Shown piece after piece: positions 1,256 to 48,972 of a stretch of 64,000 nucleotides of DNA (position 1 is its first letter; every line of letters begins with the position of its first letter). Under the pieces are notes generated by a model. It ran no database searches. It was given only the letters and a program-made list of their open reading frames with translations, and was not told where the DNA came from. Made by a program: the position numbers and the translations under genes. The DNA comes from Ruminococcus sp. Lineage in GTDB: Bacteria; Bacillota; Clostridia; Oscillospirales; Ruminococcaceae. The stretch lies in the NCBI GenBank assembly GCA_015066875.1, contig SVNM01000003.1, forward strand, positions 19,091 through 83,090, given 5' to 3'.

Positions 1256-1682
1256 AAGGCTCTCCTTTAAGTAAATTATCCATACGGAAGCATTATGTGT
1301 ATTTAGTGGGGGAACCTTTCTGAAGAAAGTTTATGCCTGACAGGCACCCGTCCCCTCTGTCAGCTTCGCTGACATCTCCCCACCCCGTGGGGAGTCACCC
1401 ACACCCCCTACAAAGACTTTTACTCTGAATTAAATCCCCATATGGTACACACTAATAACGAGATGTTAAAATCTTATCAAAATGGTGTGTGTACCATATG
1501 GGGAATTAATTTAAAAATGAAAGTTTTAGGAAAGGAGTTTGAGGATTACTCCCCGCAGTGCGGGGAGATGTCCGAAGGACAGAGGGGACAGGCTCCCGTT
1601 GGGAGAACCCTTTTTCAAAAGGGTTTTCCTCAATAAATCACGTAAATACTTCTGTGTGAAAAGTCTCCTAAGGGTGAGCCTT
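1256..1682. repeat. Structured intergenic element, copy A (~427 bp, two sub-module insertions)
   Basis: Imperfect terminal inverted repeats (AAGGCTC...GAGCCTT at base), arm hairpins and central hairpin CCCCATATGGTACACAC...GTGTGTACCATATGGGG; same architecture at four other loci. Confidence 0.85.
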
Positions 1683-11514: not shown

Positions 11515-12144
11515 ATGCAGAAAATAAATTACGGAGCAATGCTTGATAAAAAGCTTGAGGAGCTGAAAAAAACAGGTGAGAAGCCCTCGCTTCTGCTTCA
11601 CGCCTGCTGTGCGCCTTGCAGTAGCTATACACTTGAGTACATACACAGCTTTTTCAATATTATTCTGTATTTTTATAATCCCAATATTGCTCCTCAGGAA
11701 GAGTACAGCTACCGTCACAGCGAGCTTCTGCGTCTTGTAAAGGAAATGGGACTTGATATTCCCGTTATCTGTGAGGAGTACGCTCCGCAACCTTTTTATG
11801 ACCTTGCAAAGGGACTTGAAACGCTACCTGAACGTGGCAAGCGTTGCAGAAAATGCATTGAGCTCCGTCTCAGAAGCACTGCACTGAAGGCTAAGGAGCT
11901 GGGATGCGATTACTTTACCACAACTCTCACAATAAGTCCTCACAAGGACGCTCCTTTCATCAATCAGTGTGGCGGAGCTCTTGCCGAAGAGCTTGGTGTG
12001 CCCTATCTTTTCTCGGATTTCAAAAAGCACGAGGGCTATAAACGCTCTATAGAGCTTTCAAAAATCCATAACCTCTACCGACAGGATTACTGCGGTTGTA
12101 TTTACAGTAAAAAAGCAAGGGAGAATATCAACTATGTGGACTAA
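11515..12144 (+). CDS. queH: Epoxyqueuosine reductase, QueH type
   Basis: LLHACCAPCSSYTLEYI, RCRKCIELRL, DYCGCIYS. Confidence 0.9.
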   Translation: MQKINYGAMLDKKLEELKKTGEKPSLLLHACCAPCSSYTLEYIHSFFNIILYFYNPNIAPQEEYSYRHSELLRLVKEMGLDIPVICEEYAPQPFYDLAKGLETLPERGKRCRKCIELRLRSTALKAKELGCDYFTTTLTISPHKDAPFINQCGGALAEELGVPYLFSDFKKHEGYKRSIELSKIHNLYRQDYCGCIYSKKARENINYVD

Positions 12145-12928
12145 AATTTTCCGTGCAATCAATATAATCGTTATTATCACAATGCCTGTTCTCATTGTGT
12201 ATCAGCTCTTTTTCGCCGAGAAAACAGATGTGAAGCTTGTGGCAAAGGCTGTTTCTCTGCTTATTGTCTATCTGCTGGCTATGCTGAGAATACGCCGTAA
12301 GACTTCTCCCCTTGATTATCTCGTTTTTGAGGAGCAGTACAAGTCTATCCTCGGCAAAGCCTTTTCACAGGATAAGGACTCTTACAGAAAGCTTATGAAG
12401 GCAATAAGCCTGTATAATACCAACAAGCAGGAGAAGTCGCTGGATATTTTAGAGAAGCTCTACAATAACTGCTCAGAGCCCGATGACTATACCGCTGTGC
12501 TCTGCTTCAAGGCTCTTAATCTTGACGAGCTCAAGCGTACCGATGAGGCTATTGCCTGCTATGAGGAGGCTCTTACCCGTGACAGAACCAGATCAACTGT
12601 ATGGTCAAATCTCGGAATACTCTACAAAAACAACGGCAGAAACGACGACGCTGTTAATGCTTACCGCGAGGCTATTACATACGATCCCGAAAACGCCTTT
12701 GCATACAACAATATCGCAAATATCTATCTGCTTAAGGGCAATGCTCAGGAGACCATTACCTACGGGCTGAAAGCTATCGAGCTTAACCCTAAAATGCACC
12801 AGTCAATGAGCGCTCTTGCTGTTGCCTATAAAATGGAGGGCAATATGGAAAAGGCTCTTGAATATCGCAGAATGTACGAGAAAAACGGCGGGGACCCAAA
12901 GGTTATGAAGCTGTTTTTCGGCGAGTAA
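12134..12928 (+). CDS. Tetratricopeptide repeat membrane-anchored protein
   Basis: N-terminal TM segments then TPRs (AIACYEEALTRDRTRSTVWSNLGILYKNNG...). Confidence 0.85.
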   Translation: MWTKIFRAINIIVIITMPVLIVYQLFFAEKTDVKLVAKAVSLLIVYLLAMLRIRRKTSPLDYLVFEEQYKSILGKAFSQDKDSYRKLMKAISLYNTNKQEKSLDILEKLYNNCSEPDDYTAVLCFKALNLDELKRTDEAIACYEEALTRDRTRSTVWSNLGILYKNNGRNDDAVNAYREAITYDPENAFAYNNIANIYLLKGNAQETITYGLKAIELNPKMHQSMSALAVAYKMEGNMEKALEYRRMYEKNGGDPKVMKLFFGE

Positions 12929-12947: not shown

Positions 12948-13253
12948 AAAGGACTGCTTAAGGGCGCTACCCATATAGAAGTATTTACGTGAATTATTGA
13001 GGGAAACCCTTTTGAAAAAGGGTTATCCCTCAAACTCCTTTCCTAAAACTTTCATTTTTAATTAAATCCCCATAGGGTACACACACCATTTTAAAGAGAG
13101 TTCGATTTCTCGTTATCTGTGTGCACCCTATGGGGATTTAATTCAGAGTAAAAGTCTTTGTAGGGGGTGTGGGGGCAAACTTTCTTCAGAAAGGTTCCCC
13201 CACTAAATACGCATAATGCTTCCGTATAGACAGTACCCTTATGCGGTCCTTTT
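12948..13253. repeat. Structured intergenic element, copy B (inverted relative to A)
   Basis: AAAGGACTGC...GCGGTCCTTTTTT base stem; conserved arm hairpins and central CCCCATAGGGTACACAC...GTGTGCACCCTATGGGG. Confidence 0.88.
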
Positions 13254-13588: not shown

Positions 13589-14160
13589 TAAAGCTCTGCA
13601 TAGGAGGAGTGAAAATCACTGCCGAGTTCTCATTCTTTGTCTTTATGGCGATGATGTTTCTCTGCGGTGAAAACAGCCTCATCACAGACTACCTCATTTG
13701 TGTCCTTATCCACGAGTGCGCTCACGGGATAGCTCTGTGCGCTTTCGGAGGAAGTCTCGGCGAAATTTTATTTACAGCCTGCGGAATAAGGCTTATTCCC
13801 GCAAGAGAGCGTATCCTTTCCTACTGCAAGGAGATTTTTGTGCTGTCTGCAGGACCTCTGTCTAACCTTCTGCTGTTTTTTATGCTTCATTCAGCAAACA
13901 CACACAGCTCCTTTGCACTTATAAATCTCGGCACTGCTGTTTTCAATCTTCTGCCCTATTCCCTTCTTGACGGCGGTTGTATACTCATTGTCATATCACA
14001 GTTGTTCAATTGCGAAAAGCTTATGCGGTATTTTCTCACTACAGCTCAGATTTTCCTTTTTGCCCTGTCACTTATCTGCACAGTCACCCTCGGACTCGCC
14101 TTTCTGCCTCTTACGATTTTCACCTTATCCTACGGAATTTATGATATGAAACAAAAATAA
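13585..14160 (+). CDS. Site-2 protease (M50), SpoIVFB-like
   Basis: HECAH (HExxH) in a TM context and NLLPYSLLDGG second motif. Confidence 0.82.
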   Translation: MIKLCIGGVKITAEFSFFVFMAMMFLCGENSLITDYLICVLIHECAHGIALCAFGGSLGEILFTACGIRLIPARERILSYCKEIFVLSAGPLSNLLLFFMLHSANTHSSFALINLGTAVFNLLPYSLLDGGCILIVISQLFNCEKLMRYFLTTAQIFLFALSLICTVTLGLAFLPLTIFTLSYGIYDMKQK

Positions 14161-14463
14161 AGGGAGCTTTATGGGTACTGTCTATACGGAAGCATTATGC
14201 GTATTTAGTGGGGGAACCTTTCTGAAGAAAGTTTCCCACCACACCCCCTCCAAAGACTTTTGAGTCTAATTTAAGCCCCATAGGGTGCACACGGAGAAAT
14301 AATTAAATTTCTTCTTTACTTGATGTGTGTACCCTATGGGGCTTAAATTAAAAACTTGAAAGTTTTAGGAAAGGAGTTTGAGGGATAACCCTTTTTCAAA
14401 AGGGTTTCCCTCAATAATTCACGTAAATACTTCTATATAGGTAGCGCCCTTAAGACTCCCTTA
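14159..14463. repeat. Structured intergenic element, copy C
   Basis: AAAGGGAG...CTCCCTT base; central hairpin CCCCATAGGGTGCACAC...GTGTGTACCCTATGGGG; arm hairpins. Confidence 0.88.
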
Positions 14464-22680: not shown

Positions 22681-22976
22681 AACAGGACATTTATCGTTGC
22701 TGTTCTTATATAAGCATTATATATTTTTCGGGGGAAACTTTCTGAAGAAAGTATCCCCCATACCCCCTCCAAAGACTTTTAATCTGAATTTCAGCCCCAT
22801 AGGGTGCACACCGAGAGAATTTTAAGCATCTCAGTTGTTTGTTGTGCACCCTATGGGGCTGAAATTAAAAACTGAAAGTTTTAGGAAAGGAGTTTGAGGG
22901 AAACACTTTTTCAAAAGGGTTTCCCTCAATAAGTGTGTAAAACTTCTATCAAAGCATTAACTATGAATGTCCCGTT
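22681..22976. repeat. Structured intergenic element, copy D (most diverged)
   Basis: AGGACATT...AATGTCCC base; GGGGGAAACTTTCTGAAGAAAGTATCCCCC arm; central CCCCATAGGGTGCACA...TGTGCACCCTATGGGG. Confidence 0.85.
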
Positions 22977-25125: not shown

Positions 25126-25419
25126 GTAGGGGACGATGCACCCCAAGAGTACTTCCTTCGGGCGCCCACATCGTCCCGATATTTACACAATCTGTTATTT
25201 CAATCTGATGTAGGGGCGGATATCATCCGCCCGAAACACCGCAACAATGAATTATCCCGTTGCACATAAAATTGTAGGGGACGATGCCCACATCGTCCCG
25301 CACAAATAAAACAACGTCACGTATACACGCTGTTCAATAACGGGCGGATGCTCACATCCGCCCTACACATTCGGTAAATCAACATATGCAAAAATAAAAG
25401 GGCGGATTTTATCCGCCCT
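25126..25419. repeat. Cluster of five short palindromic intergenic repeats
   Basis: GTAGGGGACGATG...CATCGTCCC (25126-25180, 25274-25300) and GGGCGGAT...ATCCGCCC (25210-25234, 25341-25369, 25400-25419). Confidence 0.85.
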
Positions 25420-27200: not shown

Positions 27201-27571
27201 ATACCAGAGAATTTAAAGGTAATGACCATACAGAAGTAATTACGTATAATAATGAGGAAAACCCTTTTGAAAAAGTGTTTTCCTCAAACTCCTTTCCTAA
27301 AACTTTCAAGTTTTAATTTCAGCCCCATAGGGTGCACACAGAGAAATACTTATATTTCTTTTTTACTTGGTGTGTGTACCCTATGGGGCTGAAATTAGAC
27401 TCAAAAGTCTTTGTAGGGGGTGTGGGTGACTCCCCACAGTGTGGGGAGATGTCAGCGAAGCTGACAGAGGGGACGGGTGCCTGTCAGGCATAAACTTTCT
27501 TCAGAAAGGTTCCCCCACTAAATACATATAATACTTCTATATGAGCATAACCCTTAACTGCTCCGGTATTT
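27201..27571. repeat. Structured intergenic element, copy E (inverted, one sub-module insertion)
   Basis: AAAAATACC...GGTATTTTT base; central hairpin; sub-module at 27426-27492 shared with copy A. Confidence 0.87.
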
Positions 27572-27584
27572 TTAATATTCACAA

Positions 27585-28214
27585 TCAGCTGATAGCGTCC
27601 ATTGAATCAGGTGAAAGCTTCCAGCCCTCGCCCTTGATTTTGATAACATCAAGCTCAGTTTCGTCTGAGTTCTTACCTTCCTTACCCTTTACAGTAAGCT
27701 CAACCTCAAGCTCATAGCCCTTTGAGATTTCGATATCAGAGTCATAAGCACTGCTGTAGAGAGTCTCAAGCTCTTTAAGATCGTCCTTATCGATTTTTTC
27801 CTTATCCTTGATCTTGATTGAGAACTTAGCGTTATCGCCATACTGCTCTTTAGCGCTCTCGGTGATATAGCCAAGAAGGTTATCCATAAGCTCTAAACCT
27901 TCCTTACCCACTTCATCGATCATATCATCAGTAAGCATTGTTTCCATAAACTTTTCGCCATCGCCCTTGTTAAGAGCCTTTTCAAAATCCTTTACAGGAG
28001 TCTTATATCCGCCTGAAAGCGAAGAAATAAGCATAACAAGGATAATGATCAGGAGCAGTGCTCCACCCGCAATAACGATCATTCCCTTTGTCTGATTATT
28101 TGTAGCCGGCTGATTGATCTCCTCTGCTGTCACAGCGGGAGTTGTCTGGGCTCCACCGCAATCGCAAGCTGAACCCTCGGGAATTTCCTTCCCGCAGAAT
28201 TTACAAAATGCCAT
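27585..28214 (-). CDS. Zinc-ribbon single-TM protein
   Basis: MAFCKFCGKEIPEGSACDCGG plus TM segment. Confidence 0.75.
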   Translation of the reverse strand: MAFCKFCGKEIPEGSACDCGGAQTTPAVTAEEINQPATNNQTKGMIVIAGGALLLIIILVMLISSLSGGYKTPVKDFEKALNKGDGEKFMETMLTDDMIDEVGKEGLELMDNLLGYITESAKEQYGDNAKFSIKIKDKEKIDKDDLKELETLYSSAYDSDIEISKGYELEVELTVKGKEGKNSDETELDVIKIKGEGWKLSPDSMDAIS

Positions 28215-38976: not shown

Positions 38977-39140
38977 AGTAAAAATCGCTCCTGTCGTGAA
39001 AATTTCTGCCGTAAGGCATTATTATTTTTATTATACACCATTTTTTCCCGTTTGTCACGTGTTTTCTTAAAATATGCTTGAATTACTTTTTTCCGGGTGG
39101 TATAATTATATTAATAATAAGTATTTGGGAGGGATTACTT

Positions 39141-40349
39141 ATGAAATATAAAAAAATTCTTGCAGGTATTCTTGCCTGTGCCGTTATGGGAGTATCTCTG
39201 CCGTGTGCTCCTTATATATTGTCTGTTACTGAGGTTTCGGCAAGCGAGGAGACTGAATATACCGAAGCTTCCTATGGTGCTCTTACATATCACATTTATG
39301 CTGATTACGCTGTTGTTGCAGATTGCGACGAAGCGTCTGCTGAGGTTGAAATACCTTCTCAGATAGACAATGTTCCCGTAACATCAATCGGTGAGCTTGC
39401 ATTTGATGATTGTACAGTACTGACTAAAGTTGTTATCCCCGATACGGTTACAACCATTAGTTATGGTTCGTTTTGGGGGTGTGAAAGCCTTAATGACATA
39501 AATATTCCTAATAGTGTTACTTTTATTGATAAACAAGCATTCCTTGAGTGTAACAGTCTTGTCAGTATTACTATTCCTGCTTCTGTAACAGAAATGGGAG
39601 TCTATGTTTTTAGTAATTGCGACAGTCTCGAAGCAATTTATGTGGATGATGAAAATACAGCTTACTGCGATTTCGAGGGCGTTCTTTTTGATAAGGCAAT
39701 GACAACTCTTATCCGCTATCCCCGTGCAAAGAAGGCCTCTTCATACCATATCCCCCACGGAGTACTGTATCTTGATAACGGCTGTTTTACCGACTGTGAA
39801 AATCTTACCGAAGTTATATTGCCTGAATCACTCGAACAGCTTATCTACAACACATTTACAGGTTGCGACAATATCAAGGAGTTCACTGTACCCAAAAGTG
39901 TATGGCGTATAGGTGCTTCAGCGTTCAATTGCAAGGGAATGACCGACATTACAATTATGAATCCCGACTGCGTTATCGATGACAGCACTCTTACTATCGC
40001 TAATACATTCAGAGGCGAGTATTCATATACAGGAACAATTCACGGCTATGAAGGCTCAACTGCTCAGGCTTACGCTGAAAAATACGGCTACAGCTTTATG
40101 GCAATCAGCGAACCTTCAACCGAGCCCGCAGAAATAGTTTACGGCGACGCCGACAACGACGGTGAAGTAAAAATGAATGACGTAATAAGAGTTATGCTTT
40201 ACTCTTCCAATTCAAACGCATATCCTCTTGATGAAAAAGCTCTCAATGCCTGCGATGTGTATCAGCGGGGTGACGGCGTTACTCTTTCAGACGCTCTTTC
40301 AATTCAGAAGATGGTTACTCAGATTATCAGAGAGCTTCCCGAATCGTAA
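39141..40349 (+). CDS. Secreted LRR_5 protein with C-terminal dockerin-like module
   Basis: ATG after GGGAGG; LRRs; YGDADNDGEVKMNDVIRVMLYSS...DVYQRGDGVTLSDALSIQKMV. Confidence 0.85.
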   Translation: MKYKKILAGILACAVMGVSLPCAPYILSVTEVSASEETEYTEASYGALTYHIYADYAVVADCDEASAEVEIPSQIDNVPVTSIGELAFDDCTVLTKVVIPDTVTTISYGSFWGCESLNDINIPNSVTFIDKQAFLECNSLVSITIPASVTEMGVYVFSNCDSLEAIYVDDENTAYCDFEGVLFDKAMTTLIRYPRAKKASSYHIPHGVLYLDNGCFTDCENLTEVILPESLEQLIYNTFTGCDNIKEFTVPKSVWRIGASAFNCKGMTDITIMNPDCVIDDSTLTIANTFRGEYSYTGTIHGYEGSTAQAYAEKYGYSFMAISEPSTEPAEIVYGDADNDGEVKMNDVIRVMLYSSNSNAYPLDEKALNACDVYQRGDGVTLSDALSIQKMVTQIIRELPES

Positions 40350-40522: not shown

Positions 40523-42682
40523 ATGAAAAAAATACTTTCAGTACTGGCATCTGCTACTATTATGCTTTCATCGGTTCCGTTTACAGCCTCTTCAATGGCT
40601 TCGGCGGAATTCTGGACAGAGGAGATTATCCTCCACGCTCCAAATGAAGAACTGCTTTATACGGGAAGCAGTTTCTATCTGCCTTGTACCCAGAATAACT
40701 ACTACCGCTCAAAGTTTTATACAAGTGACGAAAGCGTTGCTTCAGTCAGCGGAAGCTTTGTTACCATAAACGGCACGGGTACTGTTCAGATTACCGGTGC
40801 AATCGGATATGACAGCGGAGAGGCTATTCCTATGGGTACCATAAGCGAAATTCCCGCTGATGTGGAAAATGATGAAACAGACGATATCCCCACCGACCAC
40901 GAAATGTTTGCAGAGGATTTTGATTTCGTGGTGGATACAAGCACAATTACCCTTGAAGTAACTCACGACAGCTTGTTCGCTTCTCCTTCGTCAGAGGGGC
41001 TTCTCTATGAGGTTCAGGAGGACGGTACTGCCCTGATAACAGGCTATGAGGGCAAAAACGCATATCTTCTCATTCCGGAAGAAATCGACGGCTATAAGGT
41101 TTCAGGCATTGCGGAAGAGGCTATAGGCTGGTACACAAAGGATAACTTCAATACACAATTTATTGATATCGAAGCCGAGCTTACAGAGCTTACTCCATAC
41201 GCCTTCATTGATTTCTGGAATCTGCGCCGTGTAAAGCTTCCCGATGGTCTTGAGGTTATTGATAAAAGCGCTTTCGGCAATTGTCGTCTGCTTTCAGAAA
41301 TAAATATTCCCGATACGGTAAAGACTATAGAAAACAATGCATTTTCTTCCTGCTATTCTCTGGCTGAGCTTGAGCTTCCATATGGACTTGAAACTATCGG
41401 AGGTGCATCTTTTTTCAATTGCCGTTCATTAATCAGCCTTATTCTTCCCGATTCACTGACGACTCTTGAGGGATCGGCATTTACAGATTGTACAAGTCTC
41501 ACCTCAATGACAATCCCCGACAGCGTTACTACTCTCGAAGGAAATGTATTCAGTGGCTGTACTGCTCTTGAAGAGGTTATTCTGCCCGACACTCTTACTG
41601 TTCTGCCACAGTACTTCTTCAGCCGGTGCGAAAATCTGACTACTGTAAATCTGCCGTCATCTCTCGTTGAAATTCAGGAGAACGCATTTTCAGGCTGTAC
41701 CGCTCTTAAAAGCATCGATTTCCCCGATGGACTTACAACTATAGGAGATTTCGCTTTTCACAATTCAGGACTTAAATCAGTCTCTCTGCCGGAAAGCCTT
41801 ACAACCACAGGCGAAGGTATCTTTCGGGAATGTCTTTCACTTGTTCACGCAGAGCTTCCTGATAATATGACAACAAATGGAAAAAGTATGTTCTCGTATT
41901 GTTCTGCGCTTGAAACAGTAAAGCTTCCCGCAAATCTTGAGGTGCTGGGCGCATATACATTCACTAACTGCACAAGTCTCAAAACCGTTGATTTGCCTGA
42001 AGGTCTGAAACGAATCAACTCTTACTCATTCCACCGCTGTTCGTCATTCAGCGAGGTCACAATTCCCGAAAGCGTGGAGTATCTGGGACCTGACGCTTTC
42101 AGAGGAACAAATCTCACTGAAATAGTGCTTCCCGAAAATATGAACACTATATCAGACTATGCATTTATATCCTGTGAGAAGCTTGCAAAGGTCAATATTC
42201 CCGAAAAGGTTACTATGATTGAAAACTACAGCTTTGCACACTGTCTCTCGCTTACAGAATTTGTTATCCCCCAAAATATCACTATCATTGAACACGGAGC
42301 ATTCTTGGGCAGTGAAAACATTACTGAAATGACCTTCCTTAATCCCGACTGCAAAATAGAAGAAACTGACATTACTCTTCCCGAATCAGCTGTTATTTAC
42401 GGCTATGAAGGCTCTACCGCTCAGGCTTATGCGGAAGCCTTCAACAGAAGCTTTATGCCTCTTGTCTACGGTGATACCGACAACGACGGTGAAGTAAAAA
42501 TGGCTGATGTTATCAGAGTTATGCTTTACTCGGCAAATCCGACAGCCTATCCTATTGACGAAACAGGCCTCAGCAATGCCGATGTGTATCAGCGGGGTGA
42601 CGGCGTTACTCTTTCAGACGCTCTTTCAATGCAGAAGCTTATTGCTCAGGCAATAACAACGCTTCCCGAATCAGCATTATAA
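40523..42682 (+). CDS. Large secreted LRR_5 (BspA-like) protein with C-terminal dockerin-like module
   Basis: ~15 LRR_5 units; YGDTDNDGEVKMADVIRVMLYSA...DVYQRGDGVTLSDALSMQKLI. Confidence 0.87.
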   Translation: MKKILSVLASATIMLSSVPFTASSMASAEFWTEEIILHAPNEELLYTGSSFYLPCTQNNYYRSKFYTSDESVASVSGSFVTINGTGTVQITGAIGYDSGEAIPMGTISEIPADVENDETDDIPTDHEMFAEDFDFVVDTSTITLEVTHDSLFASPSSEGLLYEVQEDGTALITGYEGKNAYLLIPEEIDGYKVSGIAEEAIGWYTKDNFNTQFIDIEAELTELTPYAFIDFWNLRRVKLPDGLEVIDKSAFGNCRLLSEINIPDTVKTIENNAFSSCYSLAELELPYGLETIGGASFFNCRSLISLILPDSLTTLEGSAFTDCTSLTSMTIPDSVTTLEGNVFSGCTALEEVILPDTLTVLPQYFFSRCENLTTVNLPSSLVEIQENAFSGCTALKSIDFPDGLTTIGDFAFHNSGLKSVSLPESLTTTGEGIFRECLSLVHAELPDNMTTNGKSMFSYCSALETVKLPANLEVLGAYTFTNCTSLKTVDLPEGLKRINSYSFHRCSSFSEVTIPESVEYLGPDAFRGTNLTEIVLPENMNTISDYAFISCEKLAKVNIPEKVTMIENYSFAHCLSLTEFVIPQNITIIEHGAFLGSENITEMTFLNPDCKIEETDITLPESAVIYGYEGSTAQAYAEAFNRSFMPLVYGDTDNDGEVKMADVIRVMLYSANPTAYPIDETGLSNADVYQRGDGVTLSDALSMQKLIAQAITTLPESAL

Positions 42683-46007: not shown

Positions 46008-48368
46008 TCAGAAGCCTCGCTTAGCAAGGTCCTTTTTGAATTTCTGGTCGATCTTTTCCTGTTTTTTCAGTGCCTTAAGCTCTGCCTTTGTAAGCGGTCT
46101 TGAAGGCTCCTGAGGCTTGGACTCGGTCTTCTTCGCAGTTGTACTTCTTGTGGGAGCCTTGTACTCCTGGAAAACAGGAACATTAAGCTCTGCCTGTTTC
46201 TTGCGCTTAGCTGAGTCATCGCCCATCTGTGAAAGAACGTCCTCGATTGAATCGAGCATAGGCATCTTATTTCTCTCGTACTCTGCGTCGAGAATATTAT
46301 GCTGGCTTCTTTCTCTTGAGCTTGCGATAGCATTTACAAAGTGCTGAGACATAGGTCTGCGTGCGTTAGAGCCTACCTTTGAAATGTTAACCTGAGGAGC
46401 TGTATAGCCCTGAGGCTGAACAGGTGACTGGGGCATAGGCTGTACAGGAGTGGGAGCCGGCTGAATAGGTGCTGGCTGTACAGGTGTCTGCTGAACAGGA
46501 GCCGGCTGTACAGGAGTCTGCTGAACGGGTGTCTGCTGAACGGGAGCCGGCTGTACAGGTGTCTGCTGAACGGGTGTCTGCTGAACGGGAGTCTGCTGAA
46601 CAGGTGTCTGCTGAACAGGTGTCTGCTGTACGCCCATATTCTGATAATTCATAGGCTGTACGGGAGCAAACATAGGCTGACCGTTCTGGTCGTATCCTAC
46701 TATCTGCGATGGTACATATGTATATACAGGCTGACCATTCATATCATATCCTGTAATCTGCGGAACATTCACGATCATCGGCTGTTCAGGTGAAGGAATA
46801 TTCATCTGAGGTTGTACAGGTGCCTGAGCCATAGGCTGAACAGGTGTAGGCTGTACGGGTGTCTGCTGAACGGGTGCGGGCTGAGCCTTGACCTCATCAG
46901 CAAATACAGGTGCACTGTAAACGTGCTTGTTAGTGTGATTCATTTCAAATTCACCGATAGAATCCATATCATATATTTTCTTTTCTTCTGGCTGTGCAAC
47001 AGGAGCGGGAGCTTCTTCGATCTCAGGCTCTGCCATAGCAACGGGAGCTTCCTCAATCTCAGGCTCTGCCATAGCAACGGGAGCTTCTTCGATCACAGGC
47101 TCTGCCATAGCAACGGGAGCTTCTTCAATCTCGGGCTCTGCCATAGCAACGGGAGCCTCTTCAACCTCAGGCTCTGCCATAGCAACGGGAGCTTCTTCAA
47201 CCTCAGGCTCTGCCATAGCAACGGGAGCCTCTTCAACCTCAGGCTCTGCAACAGGTGCAGAAGCTTCGGGAATACCGATTTCAGGCATTTCGCCTGCAAC
47301 TCCGAACAGCTGATTAGCAACGCTTTCCCACTGAGAAAGGCTGATTTCTTCCTCAGCTTCAGGCTCTGCCATAACTGCGGGAGCCTCCTCTGCAACAGGT
47401 TCTTTCTCAACCTCAGGCTCATAGCTTTCATATGAAGGTGTGCTGAAAATATCATCTGAGCGTGTCATCTGATTTTCTTCAACATCAACTACATTTTCAT
47501 CATTATCATATATACTCTTTTCCTCGGGAACCTTATCAGCAAGAATTTCCATTCCGCTTTCGGGAGCGCCCGATGAAATAGAAAACATCTTCATTATATC
47601 GTCGTCTGAAACATCTGCCTGTACAGGCTCTTCTGCTACAGGAGCACTCTCTTCCACAGGAGCATATGAAGGCTCTGGCACATAGCTTGGCTCAGCGGGA
47701 GCCTCTGTGAAATCAGACATATATGAAGGAGCTTCCTCAGCTACAGGAGCAGTCTCCTCAACAACAGGGGCCACAGGTGCGGGAGCAGGCTCCTCAGCAA
47801 CAGGGCTGGGAATAGCAAACTGAGCAAGGAAATCGTCCTCAGGCTTTTCAGCAGGCTTTTCAGGTTCTTCCTTTGGTACATTTATAGCAAATGCAGCAAG
47901 GTCGCTGTCGATAGCAACGCCTGTTCCGGGAATTGTCATAGGAGCAACAGGCTCAGGAGCAGTAATTTCAGGCTCGGGAGCAGTAATTTCAGGCTCAGTA
48001 AAACGCTCTGGCTCGGGAGTAACAGCTCTGTAGAATGTCTCAGGCTCTTTCTTTTCCTCGGGAGCCTTTGTCATCTTAGCCTGAGTATTTCCAAGCGGAA
48101 CTATGCCGTCATCCTCAATACCCTTCTTTGCACGCGCTTTTTCTTCCTTGATAAGACGTGTTCTTTCCTTCTTATCAGCCTTGATCATCTTCTTTGCAAT
48201 TGCAAATTTACACTTCTCACAGGTAAGCTCCTTCAGGTCTTCCATAACGCCGATCTGCTTGAACATCATTGCATTTTTCATCATGTTCATTCCGCATCCG
48301 GTTTTCTTGCCGTTATCGGTACCATGTACTTCTTCGCTTCCCACAGAAGTAATAAGCATTATTTCCAT
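46008..48368 (-). CDS. Large repetitive Pro/Glu/Gln-rich protein of unknown function
   Basis: ~786 aa from ATG after GGGAG; N-terminal CEKC; tandem EVEEAPVAMAEP 12-mers and QTPVQ 5-mers. Confidence 0.8.
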   Translation of the reverse strand: MEIMLITSVGSEEVHGTDNGKKTGCGMNMMKNAMMFKQIGVMEDLKELTCEKCKFAIAKKMIKADKKERTRLIKEEKARAKKGIEDDGIVPLGNTQAKMTKAPEEKKEPETFYRAVTPEPERFTEPEITAPEPEITAPEPVAPMTIPGTGVAIDSDLAAFAINVPKEEPEKPAEKPEDDFLAQFAIPSPVAEEPAPAPVAPVVEETAPVAEEAPSYMSDFTEAPAEPSYVPEPSYAPVEESAPVAEEPVQADVSDDDIMKMFSISSGAPESGMEILADKVPEEKSIYDNDENVVDVEENQMTRSDDIFSTPSYESYEPEVEKEPVAEEAPAVMAEPEAEEEISLSQWESVANQLFGVAGEMPEIGIPEASAPVAEPEVEEAPVAMAEPEVEEAPVAMAEPEVEEAPVAMAEPEIEEAPVAMAEPVIEEAPVAMAEPEIEEAPVAMAEPEIEEAPAPVAQPEEKKIYDMDSIGEFEMNHTNKHVYSAPVFADEVKAQPAPVQQTPVQPTPVQPMAQAPVQPQMNIPSPEQPMIVNVPQITGYDMNGQPVYTYVPSQIVGYDQNGQPMFAPVQPMNYQNMGVQQTPVQQTPVQQTPVQQTPVQQTPVQPAPVQQTPVQQTPVQPAPVQQTPVQPAPIQPAPTPVQPMPQSPVQPQGYTAPQVNISKVGSNARRPMSQHFVNAIASSRERSQHNILDAEYERNKMPMLDSIEDVLSQMGDDSAKRKKQAELNVPVFQEYKAPTRSTTAKKTESKPQEPSRPLTKAELKALKKQEKIDQKFKKDLAKRGF
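46470..46640. repeat. Tandem ~15-bp coding repeats
   Basis: Repeated acaggtgtctgctga-like units encoding PVQQT. Confidence 0.8.
47000..47250. repeat. Tandem 36-bp coding repeats
   Basis: Repeated gcaacgggagcttcttc.atctcaggctctgccata units. Confidence 0.85.
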
Positions 48369-48972
48369 AAGTAATCTCCCTTTCTGCCTGTCTGAACTCT
48401 TCATCTGCAGTTCATCAGGCTTCCGCTTTTTCGGCTGACGGTACGCCGTAATTCAAAAAACCGGCTCATAATTACCGGTATTGCTCAGCAATATCTTCAT
48501 AAAAAAAGCACGCAGAGCTTCCGAATTTAAAATAACCGCAACAATTAAGACAAAAAACAGTCACAGCAATTTTACATAACATATACATTATACAATATGC
48601 GAATAAAAAAATCAACACTTTCCTGAAAAATCAATGATAAAATTATACGATTTTTAATTTTTTTGGTAAAAACAACAAATTGTTATTGATTTTTTTGTCA
48701 TATTTTTCTTAACATCAATCCCATTTATTGTTAAATATATTCCCATTTCTGCTTCTCGGTACGCTCGTTTTTCCTCTTGCCGTAAACCGTGCAATAGTTC
48801 AATTTATATATGCTCTGCACAATTACACCGAAAAGGCTGTGCAGAGTGTAGAAAAATATCAAAAAGCGTGATTTTGCTCTTGCATTATTTCCGAAATTGT
48901 TGTATTATAATAGTGTATTGTTTATTGATTATTTAAAGGGCTCTTTGCCCTGTATCCTTTAGGAGGAGTTTT

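Follow-up and report, generated by a model that had tools for sequence, protein, structure and literature searches.

Among described elements, the nearest kind to the one presented here is YPAL of Yersinia, many targets of which, as De Gregorio et al. reportedly observed in 2006, coincide with rho-independent terminators immediately downstream of stop codons. PMC2229807, which cites De Gregorio et al. 2006, describes YPAL (also RU-2) as a small, palindromic, non-autonomous element with many intergenic copies and with both empty and filled sites; its targets span or adjoin dyad symmetry, its length is 168 bp, and it has no TA ends and target duplications of 3-26 bp. Non-autonomous inverted repeats with TA ends and target duplication also comprise RUP, ERIC and Correia/NEMIS (PMC2229807, table). 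IS1272 of Staphylococcus, a member of the IS1182 family, targets inverted repeats, that is, stem-loops of unrelated sequence (PMC5678879), and SPRITEs are terminator-like sequences that cluster where genes end, in particular where two genes converge (PMC3049150). REP/REPIN sequences with their REP-associated tyrosine transposases (RAYTs) are high-copy extragenic palindromes in an inverted doublet layout, the REPs being hairpins of 20-40 bp that flank the RAYT gene and are marked on one side by a GTAG or CGTC tag (PMC3733652).

The element found here in Ruminococcus shares with YPAL its small palindromic, non-autonomous make-up and its position behind genes, where a terminator or dyad stands. 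By description, it differs in being about 280 bp long, in its TA ends, and in a central hairpin that is hypervariable and accompanied by two conserved side hairpins. IS1272 encodes a transposase and takes the place of the entire stem-loop with no target-site duplication, whereas the element has no ORF and keeps the host stem. RUP, ERIC and Correia/NEMIS are smaller and of different sequence; a SPRITE is itself terminator-like, whereas in Ruminococcus the terminator is a host structure with the element in its loop. Unlike REP/REPIN sequences, the element bears neither tag and does not flank RAYT genes here. The element probably represents a non-autonomous, palindromic, MITE-like family of mobile DNA that was inserted at TA in the loops of intrinsic terminators. 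A description of this family in Ruminococcus was not found in the searchable literature, most subscription papers lying outside the search.

The window, a stretch of 64,000 nucleotides from a draft genome (88% complete) of the R. flavefaciens group, holds five copies, A to E, of which copy C was the subject of the original prediction:

1256-1682, plus strand: copy A with host terminator arms AAGGCTC / GAGCCTT
12948-13253, minus strand: copy B, host stem AAAGGAC / GTCCTTT, 3' of the TPR-protein gene at 12134-12928
14159-14463, plus strand: copy C with host terminator arms
14159-14169, plus strand: copy C, left arm of the host terminator stem, AAAGGGAGCTT
14170-14171, plus strand: copy C, left-end TA
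14172-14209, plus strand: copy C, left terminal arm TGGGTACTGTCTATACGGAAGCATTATGCGTATTTAGT, pairing with the right terminal arm
14210-14240, plus strand: copy C, side hairpin 1 (GGGGGAACCTTTCTGAAGAAAGTTTCCC...)
14243-14261, plus strand: copy C, linker M, CACCCCCTCCAAAGACTTTT
14267-14350, plus strand: copy C, central long hairpin, its stem variable yet paired and its loop found in both orientations among copies
14359-14383, plus strand: copy C, invariant 25-mer M', AAAGTTTTAGGAAAGGAGTTTGAGG
14379-14412, plus strand: copy C, side hairpin 2, TGAGGGATAACCCTTTTTCAAAAGGGTTTCCCTCA
14414-14450, plus strand: copy C, right terminal arm
14451-14452, plus strand: copy C, right-end TA (apparent target duplication)
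14453-14463, plus strand: copy C, right arm of the host terminator stem, AGACTCCCTTA, followed by TTTTT
22681-22976, plus strand: copy D, host stem AACAGGACATT / AATGTCCCGTT
27201-27571, minus strand: copy E, host stem ATACCGGAG / CTCTGGTAT, 3' of the minus-strand gene at 27585-28214

Three of these copies lie between gene ends. The neighbours of copy A are the genes of a QPRTase (stop 1213) and, on the minus strand, of a GDSL-lipase/dockerin protein (stop 1694); those of copy C are a gene of the peptidase M50-like type (stop 14158-14160) and the minus-strand RadA-like gene (stop 14467); and those of copy D are the gene of an AraC-type regulator (stop 22673) and an amidase gene (minus strand, stop 22980). 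Copies A and E owe their greater length to further hairpin repeats nested within the side hairpins. This second, unrelated hairpin-rich repeat (TGCCTGACAGGCACCCGTCCCCTCTGTCAGCTTCGCTGACATCTCCCC...GGGGAGTCACCC) occupies about 1333-1400 and 1545-1604 in copy A and about 27427-27491 in copy E; it was also seen in copies elsewhere (L016, L147, L151, L157), and a related form occurs in the relative G028 (L132-L134).

All five window copies were present where the original prediction had placed them and in the part order that it gave, but their number falls far short of the family. A search of the draft genome (2.25 Mb) for the 25-mer AAAGTTTTAGGAAAGGAGTTTGAGG gave 68 hits, all with 0 mismatches although 3 were allowed, and 0 hits for the reversed control. 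With copy C as a DNA query, the same genome returned 86 matches, a number that counts both strands of each palindrome. Several of the 25-mer matches lie fewer than 100 bases from a contig end (for example C6:69, C46:41, C58:56, C63:6, C99:13 and C105:13). Since breaks in the draft assembly often fall inside a copy, 68 is possibly an incomplete count. The element is thus both short and present in many copies, as the definition of a MITE demands (about 280 bp, at least 68 in the genome).

What had been taken for a terminal inverted repeat of the element turned out to belong to its surroundings. The outermost repeats differ from copy to copy and pair only with their own partner; they are the stem of the host gene's intrinsic terminator and lie outside the element. 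In the 42 copies with both flanks, the flank duplex energy averaged -16.1 kcal/mol for own partners vs -7.9 for permuted ones (sd 0.5; 0 of 20000). A run of four T follows the flank in 33/42 copies vs 6/42 in a control stretch, and a stop codon lies within 120 nt in 41/42, mostly at 10-30 nt. Two convergent stop codons within 120 nt were found for 23 of the 42 copies, whereas 6 of 52 neighbouring ORF pairs in the window are convergent (p = 1e-11). Nearly all copies, then, sit inside the loop of a gene-end terminator hairpin, a context that was missing from the first account of the family.

The element begins and ends with TA, which in an alignment of 30 of the genome's own copies stands in a fixed column pair on the left in 26 and likewise on the right in 26. 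When the flanks were joined over one TA, a junction-spanning hairpin resulted in 36/36 copies with assignable TA ends, the TA being chosen by motif; the loops had a median of 4 nt and measured 3-8 nt in 32 of the 36. The mean dG of these joins was -14.8 kcal/mol vs -6.8 for mismatched joins (0/20000). A duplication of TA on insertion is therefore suggested by reconstruction rather than by observation, because the nearest genomes are only about 80% identical, and its exact form is an inference, because the TA was picked by motif and three reconstructions were poor, with loops of 11, 14 and 17 nt.

Read from the outside in, a copy consists of the host terminator arm, TA, a terminal arm of about 38 nt, side hairpin 1, linker M and the central hairpin, and continues with linker M', side hairpin 2, the second terminal arm, TA, the other host terminator arm and the T run. 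The RNA fold of copy C reaches -151.9 kcal/mol (z = -15.8 vs dinucleotide shuffles) and its DNA fold z = -11.4 vs shuffles; the fold closes as a junction of the outer stem, the two side hairpins and the central hairpin. The invariant sequence blocks lie in the side hairpins and the two linkers, and the variable parts are the central and outer stems. CAAAGACTTTT within linker M is identical in 48/48 aligned copies and similar in other genera. A small hairpin, AGACTTTTGAGTCT, which had been listed as common to all copies, forms only in some, others reading ACTCTG or AATCTG. The terminal arms are common to the copies, fall into two subtypes in the own genome and pair within copies; in some species, such as that of G028, they are poorly conserved between copies, which makes the outer limits of the element less certain there. 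A deviating subfamily was seen in the relative G032 (L335, L341 and others of L323-L347), in which the usual left arm is combined with a different, non-hairpin right arm (TTTAAAGTAAAGGCTCCGGAAT...).

The symmetric stem substitutions that the original prediction had noted were borne out on a larger set. In the consensus structure of 48 copies, 97.0% of cells are paired vs 90.2% after shuffling, and 33 of 74 consensus pairs have changed on both sides vs 15.7 in shuffled alignments (0/500 shuffles; the value also lies above all slid versions). In the central helix, one Watson-Crick pair is almost always exchanged for another: two-sided changes affect 20 of 24 pairs, and one-sided changes alone affect 0. 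Arms match better within copies than between them, both for the terminal arms (z = 5.4) and for the central stem (z = 5.6). The central loop occurs in two types, each in both orientations (type A 21 times as + and 12 times as -, type B 2 times as + and 7 times as -), and hardly aligns with its own reverse complement.

Beyond the own genome (G000), the element is patchily distributed. It has matches in 22 of 36 Ruminococcus genomes (G000 included), with 0 to 68 copies of the 25-mer per genome: G009 (99% complete) holds 22 and G028 (100%) holds 12. No match was found in 24 genomes of other families of the same order. The conserved right-hand module alone matched in 6 of 123 sampled other genera of the family, and several of these matches share the layout of side hairpin, CC(A/T)AA(A/G)ACTTTTAAT-like linker, variable central palindrome, linker and side hairpin; both conserved arms stay alike, and the central and outer stems differ. 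A DNA search of plasmid and phage records gave no match to the element. Nor did any Rfam family match it at the curators' gathering thresholds, the sub-threshold matches obtained at lax thresholds all lying far below gathering scores with nothing convincing among them. No conserved ORF was found among the copies, in agreement with the original prediction, and the 18 copies in 397 kb of a relative are all element-sized, too small to house a transposase gene.

Presence and absence of the element vary at orthologous places, both across species and across phages. The orthologue of the RadA-like gene next to copy C has no adjoining element in 20 relatives, several of which carry a plain terminator directly after the stop codon, such as CCGGTACATTAATTGTACCGGTTTT; further examples are AACCGGTACATTAATTGTACCGGTTTT in G021, GGAGACAGCTGTGGCTGTCTCTTTTT in G013 and GGAGCGAGTTTAGTCGCTCCGTTTTTT in G001. 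The element is likewise absent from G013 at the other own sites that were checked, one of which holds a different hairpin composite. The search for an exact empty site extended to relatives about 80% identical at the nearest, and the element-free places come from species and phages rather than from near-identical genomes. In a phage contig from IMG/VR, which encodes terminase, portal and major head protein (PHROGs) and is thus a real phage, a copy separates the major head gene from the gene that follows it and is enclosed by the stem ACCGCCCCC...GGGGGCGGT. Three of 16 related phage contigs (L226-L241) end before this spot; in the 13 that can be read, the element is absent (0/13) and a plain hairpin was recognised by eye in 13/13, for example GGATGCTCTGATTTGCAGAGCATCC, GGTGTGCCGCAGTTATTGCGGCATACC and GGGGCGATGAAGACATCGCCCC. 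A hairpin is therefore constant at that place, and its sequence varies between phages. Additional viral pattern scans returned the same phage again and two further stretches. Taken together, the many copies, the absence of a conserved ORF, the TA ends, the element-free relatives and the phage copy support well the non-autonomous mobile element that had been proposed.

The original prediction had also left room for a structured RNA, arguing that paired substitutions mean a maintained structure. This does not follow from the substitutions alone: homogenised arms and an inverted loop, or spacer, are what a polymerase leaves when it switches template from one inverted repeat to the other (PMC8604942, PMC8794818), and because the central loop stands in both orientations and the arms carry this signature, covariation alone does not show selection on an RNA. 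Could the element nevertheless be a multi-hairpin structure of 3' UTRs, selected to protect or process mRNA ends, with covariation reflecting selection for RNA folding? The very stable fold of copy C, the two-sided changes and the position at gene 3' ends would all suit such a role; in the linker stem, whose linkers hardly vary, one-sided departures are all G.U on the plus strand, as RNA selection would leave, and the similarly placed YPAL was proposed to affect transcript stability (PMC2229807, citing De Gregorio 2006). However, insertions occur in both orientations relative to genes without bias (11 vs 7, p = 0.48), and G.U does not consistently outnumber A.C between the arms, as it would if one strand were preferred (20 vs 65 in the central stem, 150 vs 96 in the terminal arms and 22 vs 21 in the host stem, counted over cells that share ancestry). 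Since about half of the copies have an inverted central loop, only 22 of the 36 genus genomes carry the element and Rfam gives no match at gathering score, we regard an RNA under selection as unlikely, and a strand-specific one is not supported. Template switching could also be taken further, such that the copy-specific outer stems were never targets but grew outward from the element as one flank was copied into the other. This process does extend and homogenise inverted repeats (PMC8604942, PMC8794818), and loop inversion, its other footprint, is visible in the element. Yet with an A run, a short stem and a T run the outer stems resemble terminators, and they stand at stop codons, and the orthologous places often hold plain terminators in relatives and plain hairpins in related phages, making outgrown stems highly improbable.

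RUP probably depends on an IS630 transposase for its movement, and the TA target of IS630 (Tc1/mariner) may apply to the present element, which has TA at both ends and for which one-TA joining, as reconstructed, restores a terminator. However, the IS630-type domain PF13358 (DDE_3) is absent from the own genome, an 88% complete draft, and from nearly all element-rich relatives (G008, G009, G013, G028, G032 and others), and we rejected an IS630-type partner on these grounds. An IS1182-type partner was likewise rejected, PF13751 not being found in the own genome (88% complete); most element-bearing relatives searched lack it, too. The same absence bears on the possibility that the element replaces terminator stem-loops or their loops in the manner of IS1272, without target duplication, instead of entering at a TA that is then duplicated. 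Only a little host sequence separates the host stem from the element, and IS1272 reportedly takes the place of its inverted-repeat targets, leaving no TSD (PMC5678879), but here the host stem is kept and one-TA joining gives loops of normal terminator size, so that replacement seems unlikely. A REPIN-like element mobilised by a RAYT is a little less likely still. Y1 enzymes have hairpins as their substrate, RAYT-like genes exist in the own genome, and their presence goes with that of the element across 36 genus genomes (12/7/3/14, Fisher p = 0.008, uncorrected for phylogeny). On the other hand, the fetched flanks of 12 Y1 loci contain no parts of the element, the nearly complete G009 and the complete G028 have no RAYT match despite their copies, and the element greatly exceeds a REP in length and has no GTAG foot. 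Separate GTAG-type palindromes in the window and in relatives fit a RAYT better. Such a GTAG-footed, REP-like palindrome (GTAGGGGCGGATATCATCCGCCC) was seen at 25210 of the window and in the C7 flanks of G013, and in-frame peptides of RAYT-like ORFs of the genus (L253, L259, L267, L272), such as VGANCVRP, look like the GTAG palindrome within coding sequence.

Non-exhaustive searches of the own draft genome and of relatives yielded neither an autonomous copy nor a matching transposase. A scan for the left arm in six genomes likewise met no autonomous copy among those inspected, and several copies in G032 had a different right arm. One copy, in Ruminococcus sp. YE71 (L073), was considered as a decayed autonomous copy and rejected, as its 59-aa peptide had no convincing match in Pfam, PDB, plasmids, phages or 149 genomes. 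On its reverse strand, at about 2400-2700, this copy has a non-palindromic centre that ends in an ORF-like stretch (...RKIRKKLPKVKKY; ...LPKVKKY) before the right arm.

For the mobile palindrome that we favour, the following course of events can be envisaged. An enzyme acting in trans would recognise the two conserved arms and choose a TA in a terminator loop as target, and the element would arrive by transposition with duplication of that TA. Folding as a palindrome, it would let the host terminator stem still close around it, which would make the insertion nearly harmless and allow the copies to survive. Template switching from arm to arm as the DNA is replicated would then be largely responsible for the paired stem changes and for the inversion of the central loop. 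Termination or the stability of mRNA 3' ends may be modestly affected. The preference for terminator loops could reflect recognition of a hairpin or cruciform by the enzyme or selection that purged other insertions, two causes that are inseparable here; target choice is favoured, because the copies sit inside the loop and not merely near the terminator. It is tempting, if distinctly speculative, to extend this view to mobile palindromes across several genera and phages, whose machinery would target the terminator's DNA hairpin as a cruciform or in single-stranded form, insert at TA in the loop and rely on a trans-acting enzyme of a family not yet linked to such elements. The favoured reading, for its part, would make the element a clear natural case of terminators serving as a safe landing place with the terminator stem kept intact, nested hairpins would arise by such insertion into terminator loops, and the enzyme, once found, would give a structure-targeting transposition system. 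The element also calls for caution in a wider sense: strong covariation in bacterial repeats can stem from template switching on DNA and is not proof of a functional RNA.

Two further observations concern repeats within genes of the window. The neighbouring genes at 39078-40349 and 40523-42682 share blocks of 63-109 bp with 78-87% identity, about 2.3 kb apart, and the gene at 46008-48404 contains long coding repeats of 15 bp and 36 bp.
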